From: an uncultured Pelagibacteraceae bacterium
GTDB taxonomy: Bacteria; Pseudomonadota; Alphaproteobacteria; Pelagibacterales; Pelagibacteraceae
DNA: 64,000 nucleotides
Assembly (NCBI GenBank): GCA_902551455.1
Contig: CACDDC010000005.1
Location: 1-64,000 of the forward strand
Reading direction: 5' to 3'
The notes under the pieces are model-generated. The model was not told where the DNA came from, made no database searches, and saw only the letters and a program-made list of their open reading frames with translations. Positions 50,743 through 58,235 of this stretch are shown here, in pieces; within the stretch, counting starts at the first letter, position 1; each line of letters opens with the position of its first letter. Position numbers and translations under genes: made by a program.

Positions 50743-51063
50743 GTGAGTATTCAAAAAGCAAAATTTTCAATAGGTGATATAGTTAAGCATAAGCACTTTG
50801 ACTTTAGAGGTGTAATTTATGATGTTGATTTTGAGTTTAATAATTCTGAAGAATGGTACGAGTCAATTCCTAAAAATGTTAGACCTAGAAAAGATCAGCC
50901 TTTTTATCATTTGTTAGCTGAAAACGATGATGTTACTTACGAGGCTTACGTTTCAGAACAAAATCTTTTAACGGATGACTCTGATGAACCAATCAAACAC
51001 CCATTAATTAACGAAATTTTTTCAGGCAAAAAAGGCTCTGGTTATTTCAAACCATCAAATTAA
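50743..51063 (+). CDS. hspQ: Heat shock protein HspQ-like (GTG start)
   Basis: FSIGDIVKHKHFDFRGVIYDVDFEFNNSEEWYESIP...QPFYHLLAENDDVTYEAYVSEQNL. Confidence 0.9.
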   Translation: MSIQKAKFSIGDIVKHKHFDFRGVIYDVDFEFNNSEEWYESIPKNVRPRKDQPFYHLLAENDDVTYEAYVSEQNLLTDDSDEPIKHPLINEIFSGKKGSGYFKPSN

Positions 51064-51137
51064 TTTTGATATAAAAGCCTTGATTTAAACACAATTTTCT
51101 CAAAACTTAGACATATCTTAGTTCTAATATTAAAATA

Positions 51138-51199
51138 TTCTGATCAAGGATACCAATGTTTCCCTAATATATCTCCCTCAAAAGTATTCTTGATCGGAA
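51138..51199 (+). ncRNA. Candidate structured RNA / 5' leader element upstream of ccmC
   Basis: TTCTGATCAAGGATAC / GTATTCTTGATCGGAA form 16 contiguous pairs (two G-U, valid only as + strand RNA) closing a 30-nt loop CAATGTTTCCCTAATATATCTCCCTCAAAA. Confidence 0.5.
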
Positions 51200-51248
51200 A
51201 TCAAAAAAAAAATCCAAAAAATATTTAAATTTTATATATAATTAAATA

Positions 51249-51956
51249 ATGTTAAAAAATATTGAGCCAAGTAAAATTTATTCAATAACATCAAAAGCGC
51301 CAAAATATGTTTTTTATATTTTTTTAATTATATTAAGCATAGGTTTATTAGAAGCTTTAATATTATCACCAAAAGATTATATCCAAAGTCATTCTGTAAG
51401 AATTATGTATGTTCACGTACCATCTGCATGGTTATCACTTGGAATATTTTCTGTAATTGGAATATTATCAATTATTATTCTGATATTTAAAAATAAAAAT
51501 TTATCATTAATAACAAAAAGTTTGGCTCCTTCCGGTTTTGTATTTAGTATTATAGCTTTAGTAACAGGTTCAATTTGGGGAAAGCCAACTTGGGGTAGTT
51601 GGTGGGCATGGGACCCTAGAATTGTTTCAATGTTAATTTTAGGATTATTTTACTTAATGTATTTAATCTCATGGAGAATTTTTGAAAACAAATCTTATGC
51701 AAGCAATGTAACTTCTATAATTGCAATTTTTGGAATGATTAATTTGCCAATAATTAAATACTCAGTTGTTTGGTGGAACACACTTCATCAGCCAGCTTCT
51801 GTAAATTTGCTGTCTGGCTCATCAATTCACCATTCAATGCTTGTACCTTTAGCCATTATGACTGCGGCATTTGCTCTATTCTCAATTTTAATATTTTTGA
51901 TGAAATATAATACAGAACTGATAAAGATAAAAAATAAAGGTCTTAATAGATTATGA
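51249..51956 (+). CDS. ccmC: Heme exporter protein CcmC
   Basis: MYVHVPSAWLSLG, WGKPTWGSWWAWDPRIVSMLIL, WWNTLHQPAS. Confidence 0.98.
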   Translation: MLKNIEPSKIYSITSKAPKYVFYIFLIILSIGLLEALILSPKDYIQSHSVRIMYVHVPSAWLSLGIFSVIGILSIIILIFKNKNLSLITKSLAPSGFVFSIIALVTGSIWGKPTWGSWWAWDPRIVSMLILGLFYLMYLISWRIFENKSYASNVTSIIAIFGMINLPIIKYSVVWWNTLHQPASVNLLSGSSIHHSMLVPLAIMTAAFALFSILIFLMKYNTELIKIKNKGLNRL

Positions 51957-55932: not shown

Positions 55933-57087
55933 ATGAAATTATCAGATTGTTACAATTTTAGTGATTTTAGAAAACTCGCTAAAAAAAAATTACCTTCTCC
56001 AATTTTTCACTACATAGATGGTGCAGCTGATGATGAAATTACTTACAGAAGAAATACAAGCGCTTTTGACGATGTTGATTTAGTACCAAATGTTTTAAGA
56101 GGAGTTGAGAATGTTGATTTATCAACTACAATATTTGGTAAAAAACTAGATTTACCTTTTTACTTAGCACCTACGGCTCTACAAAGACTTTTTCATTATG
56201 ATGGTGAAAGAGCAGTTGGTAAAGCTGCTCAAAAATTTAATACCATGTTTGGTGTTTCAGCACTTGCGACTGTGAGTGTAGAAGAAATATCTTCTATGAT
56301 TGATACTCCAAAGATGTTTCAATTTTATTTTCATAAAGATAGAGGTTTAAATGACTCTTGTTTAGAACGAGCAAAAGCAGCTAAATTTGATGTTATGGCT
56401 TTAACAGTAGACACTATAACTGGAGGGAATCGTGAAAGGGATTTAAGGACTGGCTTTACATCACCACCTAAATTAACTTTATCAAGTTTATTTAGTTTTG
56501 CAACAAAACCTATGTGGGGAATAAATTATTTAACAAGAGGTAAGTTTGAATTACCTCATCTTCAAGATTATGTAAAAGAAGGTACCAGCACTAATACATC
56601 TATTGGTAATTACTTTTCTACAATGTTAGACCAATCTATGAATTGGAATGATGCTGAAAAACTTTGTTCTCAATGGGGTGGTCATTTTGCACTTAAAGGA
56701 GTGATGAGTGTTGAAGATGCTAAAAGAGCAGTCGATATAGGATGTACAGGTATAATGGTTTCAAATCATGGTGGTAGACAACTTGATGGTTCAAGATCCC
56801 CATTCGATCAACTTGCTGAAATTGTTGATGCTGTCGGTGATAAACTTGATGTGATTTGTGAGGGTGGAATTCACAGAGGAACTCATATTCTTAAAGCATT
56901 ATCAATAGGAGCTAAAGCATGTTCTGGTGGTAGACTTTACCTTTACGCATTGGCAGCTGCTGGACAAGCGGGTGTTGAAAGAGCTTTAGATCAATATCGT
57001 AAAGAACTTGAGAGAGATATGAAACTTATGGGGTGTACAAAGATAAGTGATTTAAATAGAGATAATTTAAAATTTAGAAACAAATGA
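55933..57087 (+). CDS. FMN-dependent alpha-hydroxy-acid dehydrogenase (LldD family), paralog 1
   Basis: LPSPIFHYIDGAADDEIT, VSNHGGRQLDGSRSPFDQL. Confidence 0.93.
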   Translation: MKLSDCYNFSDFRKLAKKKLPSPIFHYIDGAADDEITYRRNTSAFDDVDLVPNVLRGVENVDLSTTIFGKKLDLPFYLAPTALQRLFHYDGERAVGKAAQKFNTMFGVSALATVSVEEISSMIDTPKMFQFYFHKDRGLNDSCLERAKAAKFDVMALTVDTITGGNRERDLRTGFTSPPKLTLSSLFSFATKPMWGINYLTRGKFELPHLQDYVKEGTSTNTSIGNYFSTMLDQSMNWNDAEKLCSQWGGHFALKGVMSVEDAKRAVDIGCTGIMVSNHGGRQLDGSRSPFDQLAEIVDAVGDKLDVICEGGIHRGTHILKALSIGAKACSGGRLYLYALAAAGQAGVERALDQYRKELERDMKLMGCTKISDLNRDNLKFRNK

Positions 57088-58235
57088 ATTTAAAAGATTG
57101 TCATAATTTTAATGATTTTAGAAAGTTAGCAAAAAAAAAATTACCATCTCCAATATTTCACTACATAGATGGTGGTGCAGATGATGAAATTACTTTAAAA
57201 AGAAACACCAGCTCTTTTGATAAATGTGATTTAATTCCGAATGTTCTAGCTGGTGTAAATAAGCCAGATTTATCAACAACAATATTTGGAAGAAAAATTG
57301 ATATGCCAATTTTTTTATCACCAACAGCAATGCAAAGATTATATGACCCTGAGGGAGATAAGGCCTCAGCACGTGCAGCTGAAAAATTTGGAACTATGTA
57401 TGGTATGTCTACAATGGCAACAACTTCAATTGAGGAAATTGCCAATGTATCAAGTGGGCCAAAACTCTTTCAGCTATACATACATAAAGACAAATCATTA
57501 ACTGATGATCTAATTGAAAGATGTAAAAGAGCTAATTTTGATGGATTATGTTTAACAGTAGATACCATAGTTGCTGGTAATAGAGAAAGAGATTACAAAA
57601 CAGGATTTACAACACCTCCAAAACTAACATTAAAAAGTTTAATAGAGTTTGGAATTAAACCAAAATGGGTTTTAAACTACTTCATAAATAGAAAATTTGA
57701 ATTAGCAAATGTTAAACATATAACCGACAAAGGTACCAATATTACAAAATCTGTTATTGATTATGTTAATGAACAATATGATCCCCAAATGAATTGGAAT
57801 GATGCAGAGTACTGCATTAAAAAATGGAATGGTCCTTTTGCTTTAAAGGGAGTTATGTCTGTTGAAGATGCAAAAAAAGCAATTGATATTGGTTGCACTG
57901 CAATAATTATTTCAAATCATGGAGGAAGGCAGCTGGACGGATCAATATCACCATTTGATCAACTTAAAAATATTTCAGATGCTGTAGGAGATAAATTAGA
58001 AATCATACTAGATGGAGGAGTTAGAAGAGGCACACATATTTTAAAAGCAATTGCGGCAGGTGCAAAAGCATGTAGTTTTGGTAAAATGTTTTTGTTTTCT
58101 CTTGCAGCAGGAGGACAAGCAGGTGTGGAACGTGCTTTGCAAAATATACATGACGAACTTAAAAGAAATATGTTATTAATGGGATGTAAGAACTTAAAAG
58201 AACTAAATCAATCTAAAATTATATATAGAAAATAA
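57084..58235 (+). CDS. FMN-dependent alpha-hydroxy-acid dehydrogenase (LldD family), paralog 2
   Basis: LPSPIFHYIDGGADDEIT, ISNHGGRQLDGSISPFDQL; close paralog of the preceding gene. Confidence 0.93.
   Translation: MNLKDCHNFNDFRKLAKKKLPSPIFHYIDGGADDEITLKRNTSSFDKCDLIPNVLAGVNKPDLSTTIFGRKIDMPIFLSPTAMQRLYDPEGDKASARAAEKFGTMYGMSTMATTSIEEIANVSSGPKLFQLYIHKDKSLTDDLIERCKRANFDGLCLTVDTIVAGNRERDYKTGFTTPPKLTLKSLIEFGIKPKWVLNYFINRKFELANVKHITDKGTNITKSVIDYVNEQYDPQMNWNDAEYCIKKWNGPFALKGVMSVEDAKKAIDIGCTAIIISNHGGRQLDGSISPFDQLKNISDAVGDKLEIILDGGVRRGTHILKAIAAGAKACSFGKMFLFSLAAGGQAGVERALQNIHDELKRNMLLMGCKNLKELNQSKIIYRK

Follow-up and report, generated by a model that had tools for sequence, protein, structure and literature searches.

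A conserved hairpin RNA behind hspQ in Pelagibacterales, a possible family of trans-acting small RNAs with an anti-Shine-Dalgarno-like loop

The spacer between hspQ and ccmC in the window examined here (the whole stretch analysed, 64,000 nucleotides of contig CACDDC010000005.1 from an uncultured Pelagibacteraceae bacterium) contains a hairpin RNA that is selected on the + strand, has a conserved loop and a conserved upstream box, is found in single copy, and is independent of ccmC. The sequence-only reading had proposed either a trans-acting small RNA or a leader regulating the ccm operon. The leader is weakened by the gene order in a further genus, g12, and a new family of trans-acting small RNAs with an anti-Shine-Dalgarno (SD)-like loop is now the best explanation, though we consider it about equally likely to be right or wrong. 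It is favoured because alphaproteobacterial anti-SD RNAs are built in this way, with a fixed C-rich loop carried on a stem that varies. The relevant features of the window are listed below.

50743-51063, + strand: hspQ, with its stop at 51063; the direct 5' neighbour of the RNA in every copy with the hspQ side present
51084-51114, + strand: conserved box TTTAAACACAATTTTCTCAAAACTTAGACAT (consensus AAATTTAACA-n9-CAAAnCTnnGACA), about 30 nt, conserved in genera g1, g8 and g12
51108-51113 and 51131-51136, + strand: alternative sigma-70 match, TAGACA and TAAAAT (sequence match)
51125-51130, + strand: -10-like hexamer TAATAT, starting with a TA that is invariant 12 nt past GACA in g1 and g8
51138-51153, + strand: 5' arm of the helix, UUCUGAUCAAGGAUAC; transcription is predicted to start at the arm or slightly 5' of it
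51154-51183, + strand: loop, 30 nt (21-34 nt in relatives)
51159-51165, + strand: pyrimidine block 1, UUUCCCU, moderately conserved and gone in some relatives (e.g. L007 and L012)
51173-51179, + strand: loop core CUCCCUC, near-invariant in g1, g8 and g12, preceded by UAU in g1; the exact complement of GAGGGAG
51184-51199, + strand: 3' arm of the helix, GUAUUCUUGAUCGGAA, with no U-tract after it
51237-51242, + strand: possible -10 element of ccmC, TATAAT (sequence match)
51249-51956, + strand: ccmC, the 3' neighbour of the RNA in g1 and g8 (a different gene in g12)

The gene boundaries at 51063 (hspQ stop) and 51249 (ccmC start) confirm the gap of 185 bp, and the uninterrupted 16-bp helix (51138-51153 with 51184-51199), including two G-U pairs and a 30-nt loop, is exactly as originally described. 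On the + strand, the spacer folds with a z-score of -4.4 and none of 200 shuffles was equally stable; the reverse strand gives a different fold (z = -2.2). The longest helix in dinucleotide shuffles of the gap (n=500) averaged 8.5 bp, and 16 bp was reached in one of the 500. Two further details of the original description hold only in part. The loop, said to be pyrimidine-rich with two CCCU blocks, is pyrimidine-rich and its second block (AUCUCCCUC) is ultraconserved, but the first block is lost in several relatives. The weaker hairpin just upstream (51105-51124) is present in the window, but it overlaps the conserved linear box and is lost in most relatives.

The initial DNA search recovered the region in genomes of the same genus. 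Two islands are conserved in 16 aligned spacers, namely a box right behind hspQ and the hairpin, and UAUCUCCCUC is identical in all 16. In the 15 hairpins aligned over the 16-pair helix, 98.3 % of cells are standard pairs. Two-sided changes were seen at eight of the 16 pairs (24 compensatory cells), and the covariation score was reached by none of 500 shuffles. Compensatory change in relatives, for which a covariance check had been suggested, is therefore found in these hairpins, and it is also found in a second genus, g8. A covariance model built from the 15 hairpins, and not fitted to the stems of genera g5-g7, g9-g11 and g14, matched 251 of 397 Pelagibacterales genomes (E<=0.001), apparently at one place per genome. 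Strong extra matches in six genomes, initially candidates for second copies, represent the same place read on the opposite strand, and a mobile or repeated element is ruled out by the single copy per genome. Four well-assembled Pelagibacter genomes have no match to the model. As a ccmC match is absent there too, a stretch missing from the assembly is the likeliest reason.

Of 169 pattern matches among the loci, 163 lie between hspQ and ccmC; five of the others arose by chance and have no helix, and the remaining one falls at the edge of a contig. In all 167 distinct spacers, the core [AU]CUCCCUC is enclosed by a helix, 14-27 pairs long. Pattern matches in three viral contigs have no flanking helix and look like chance occurrences in other sequence, and a phage origin was rejected. 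Those in Rhodopseudomonas and L144 are likewise chance matches with no helix.

The helices of 134 distinct sequences from Pelagibacter, the genus of the window, include 1802 Watson-Crick, 278 G-U and 7 A-C cells. Because a G-U pair on the + strand corresponds to A-C on the - strand, this imbalance indicates selection on the + strand RNA, and bears out the claim, made from the two G-U pairs in the window, that the helix is intact only as + strand RNA. It also excludes a DNA palindrome or selection on the - strand. A long inverted repeat sitting between two genes could be an intrinsic terminator, a chance helix or a DNA-level repeat, but this is very improbable here. The covariation in both the g1 and g8 alignments refutes a chance helix or DNA repeat, and the loop is asymmetric and conserved in an element that is neither multicopy nor a mobile repeat. 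No intrinsic terminator was found either after the hairpin or between hspQ and the hairpin; a U-tract is absent after the stem, and the conserved post-stem profile contains no T run in g8 and g12.

In g8, the stem is GCCUAAUUGGGAAU/AUUCUCAAUUAGGC, compared with CUGAUCAAGGAUGC/GCAUUCUUGAUCAG in the window genus, and pairing is kept (99.1 % paired, with two-sided changes in five of 14 pairs). The g8 loop terminates in ACUCCCUC. A third, different stem is found in g12. Hence, stems are wholly different between genera, while the loop core is fixed in g1, g8 and g12; in one g12 locus (L206) CTCCCTT replaces CTCCCTC. We note that a tandem duplication covers the 3' half of the RNA in another g12 locus (L202), the sole partial duplication seen, and that a second conserved element, CTTCACA-n12-TATAGTAGT, lies just 5' of ccmC in g8 (L210-L239) and is possibly a promoter or operator of its own.

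The RNA and the upstream box are kept behind hspQ in all five g12 genomes, where the gene 3' of the RNA is pagL-like (5/5), a gene that follows the ccm operon in the window. The ccm operon is absent from the hspQ-pagL interval in g12 (L202-L206), giving the order hspQ-RNA-pagL-lldD, and ccmC of one g12 genome (G415) is on another contig. As g12 keeps the RNA at hspQ without ccmC, the RNA is tied to hspQ or stands alone and does not belong to ccmC, and a role as ccmC leader alone does not account for this gene order. In the sister family f2, no such RNA was found in the 11 hspQ loci read, and another gene follows hspQ.

Three further explanations were weighed against a trans-acting small RNA. 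The ccmC mRNA could begin with the hairpin, which would set the stability or translation of the message, with a protein or RNA perhaps binding the loop. The hairpin is on the same strand as ccmC and 16-60 nt 5' of its start in g1 and g8, with no terminator in between. Furthermore, published arrays recorded a 5-10-fold rise of ccmC mRNA in HTCC1062 when sulfur-limited cells were in stationary phase (PMC5069961), consistent with a regulated promoter 5' of ccmC; a regulated promoter at the hairpin that reads into ccmC would explain this response, provided HTCC1062 carries the RNA. However, a leader should move with ccmC when the gene order changes, and in the five g12 genomes the RNA and box remain at hspQ while ccmC is elsewhere. 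The sequence from the hairpin to ccmC is also not conserved in g1, ccmC has no purine-rich SD that could partner the loop, and TATA-like sequences are found directly before ccmC in g1 and g8. A leader is thus unlikely, though it retains appreciable weight.

We regard as rather unlikely a 3'-UTR element of hspQ, either a co-transcribed hairpin involved in stabilization or processing or a 3'-UTR-derived small RNA like CcsR, as the box and fixed-spaced TA 5' of the hairpin resemble a separate promoter and an invariant loop core is needless in a pure stability element. The linkage to hspQ in all sequenced copies with the hspQ side, g12 included, and the lack of a terminator between hspQ and the hairpin are nonetheless in its favour, and a small RNA derived from the 3'-UTR would retain the trans mechanism. 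Finally, the loop core might be the site for an RNA-binding protein (a translational repressor or sponge) and not an antisense seed. In its favour, a fixed 7-10-nt single-stranded motif sits on a variable stem, and the core is kept in g12 despite loss of its complement at proteorhodopsin. Yet no candidate protein was identified and the core resembles the display of alphaproteobacterial anti-SD RNAs too, making a protein site improbable.

Upstream of the hairpin, the box and the TA at a fixed spacing are conserved, whereas the stretch from this TA to the hairpin and the sequence 3' of the hairpin are not conserved in g1. Based on this pattern, we infer that the box and TA form a promoter-like element with a start near the hairpin base. 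As a stand-alone prediction the promoter is weak, with 2 matches found and 4.0 expected by chance. No second strong box site was found in G012, in part of G069 or in the window, where only the hspQ locus scores high. A regulon sharing the box was therefore rejected for the sequence scanned, and the box, being unique, lends the promoter reading no regulon support.

If the trans-acting small-RNA reading is correct, the promoter-like element behind hspQ would direct synthesis of a short + strand hairpin RNA beginning at approximately the 5' base of its helix. The stem, some 14-18 bp long, would display a pyrimidine-rich loop of 21-34 nt with the fixed core CUCCCUC, and the exposed core would pair in trans with SD sequences of the GAGGGAG/AGGGAG type in a few mRNAs, blocking their translation. 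A chaperone such as Hfq possibly assists pairing. Because there is no terminator after the hairpin, some transcripts probably continue into ccmC; however, the missing intrinsic terminator is unusual for a stand-alone small RNA.

Candidate targets were sought in two Pelagibacter genomes, of which one is complete and the other nearly so (895 ortholog pairs with a mean identity of 67 %), and the names proteorhodopsin and AmtB were assigned by reading translations. The best start-proximal site paired in both genomes is that of proteorhodopsin (AAGAGGGAGUUUUUUAUG, seven G-C-rich pairs). GAGGGAG is rare near starts and, among the 895 ortholog pairs, common only to the proteorhodopsin pair, while AGGGAG near starts is common only to proteorhodopsin and AmtB. 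Target prediction against SD regions, one of the checks suggested at the outset, hence identified proteorhodopsin as the best conserved site, but the statistics are weak. Two of 40 shuffled loops equal or beat the best conserved duplex, so on its own the target signal lacks significance, and three of 21 base permutations of GAGGGAG also have a conserved start-proximal ortholog.

The pattern GAGGGAGNNTTN{0,4}ATGA, tallied by hand from a table of 297 genomes, is present in 194 of 218 g1 genomes, 31 of 37 from g8, two of 24 from other genera of the family and none of 18 from f2, and is located at the proteorhodopsin start wherever both were mapped. Though the pattern was absent from f2, proteorhodopsin was found in 22 of the 24 f2 genomes searched. 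The SD and spacer of proteorhodopsin are nearly letter-invariant in Pelagibacter (GAGGGAGTTTTTTATGA; L263:10086-10102, G012:C1:210086) and nearly invariant in g8 as well (GAGGGAGGTTTTCATGA), where the site is GAGGGAGG in 20 of 21 loci. The corresponding site in g12 is GAGAGG, AAAAGG or absent. Thus g12 keeps the RNA yet its proteorhodopsin lacks GAGGGAG, which argues against the link, and GAGGGAG may merely be the strong SD of a highly expressed gene. Targeting of proteorhodopsin, the best candidate, is suggestive and should be seen as a lead, not a result. That the CUCCCUC loop might be a dedicated trans regulator of the GAGGGAG SD of proteorhodopsin, and possibly of AmtB, tying light-driven energy capture to the nutrient or stress state, is speculative and in our view doubtful.

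Other occurrences of related sequence were recorded. In G012, a terminator-like hairpin (C1, ~401501, on the - strand, close to where L303 begins) carries GAGGGAG, the complement of the loop core, in its loop and is possibly a sponge RNA; no similar sequence was found in the part of G069 examined. A search for pairing with rRNA matched the 16S 3'-end motif at two places in G012, both of which continue unlike a 16S 3' end, and rRNA was thus not located. The window includes two tandem lldD-like (FMN-dependent alpha-hydroxy acid dehydrogenase) paralogs, at 55933-57087 and from ~57083, and an 11-nt complement of the g1 consensus loop core (GAGGGAGATAA, 57350-57361) within the second is probably due to chance.

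Among ocean heterotrophs, SAR11 bacteria are the most numerous. They have few transcriptional regulators, and post-transcriptional control is thought to be more important. No characterised base-pairing small RNA of SAR11 was found in the literature searched. The RNA reported here is conserved in most Pelagibacter genomes with strong covariation, and it provides a single seed that can be tested, together with a few candidate targets; if the proposed targeting is true, a small RNA would control proteorhodopsin in an organism whose genome has very few transcription factors. The hairpin RNA and its putative promoter also provide an alternative reading of the published response of ccmC to sulfur limitation.

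The proposed novelty of the RNA was upheld against Rfam 15 and the literature searched. At gathering thresholds, the only Rfam match in the whole window is a tRNA-Gly, and at E<=10 the spacer gives only weak, unrelated matches, none credible. Candidate structured RNAs previously reported in Pelagibacter ubique (the rpsB, rpsL, ffh, SAM-V, rhtB, pntA, babIM and SAR11_0636 motifs; PMC2704228) are, like this one, conserved in long SAR11 intergenic regions. However, they are at other loci, and the hspQ-ccmC spacer is absent from the printed table of that search of GC-enriched spacers (PMC2704228).

The cuckoo/ar14 RNAs (SmelA075/SmelA099 and NfeR1) are variable-stem hairpins with an ultraconserved C-rich anti-SD loop, CCUCCUCCC (PMC10746234, PMC3927594), and the CcsR RNAs of Rhodobacter are found behind a small protein gene, DUF1127 (PMC3927594, PMC10746234, PMC10253847). 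Variable stems around a fixed loop are seen here too. However, the SAR11 core is [AU]CUCCCUC and CCUCCUCCC is absent in g1, g8 and g12; there is a single hairpin instead of three or four, hspQ rather than DUF1127 is upstream, and the SAR11 RNA has neither a terminator nor an Rfam match. The aR8 RNAs SisA-D of Caulobacter bind mRNAs and have a CU-rich core, UUUCCUCCCU; the sponge CrfA opposes them in feast/famine (PMC12559287). CUCCCU is common to UUUCCUCCCU and the SAR11 core, but the aR8 core is linear and single-stranded after a weak hairpin, whereas UAUCUCCCUC is inside an apical loop closed by a helix of 14 or more pairs, and aR8 has four siblings whereas the SAR11 RNA is single copy. The SAR11 RNA is thus analogous to the cuckoo/ar14 and aR8 RNAs but falls outside both families.
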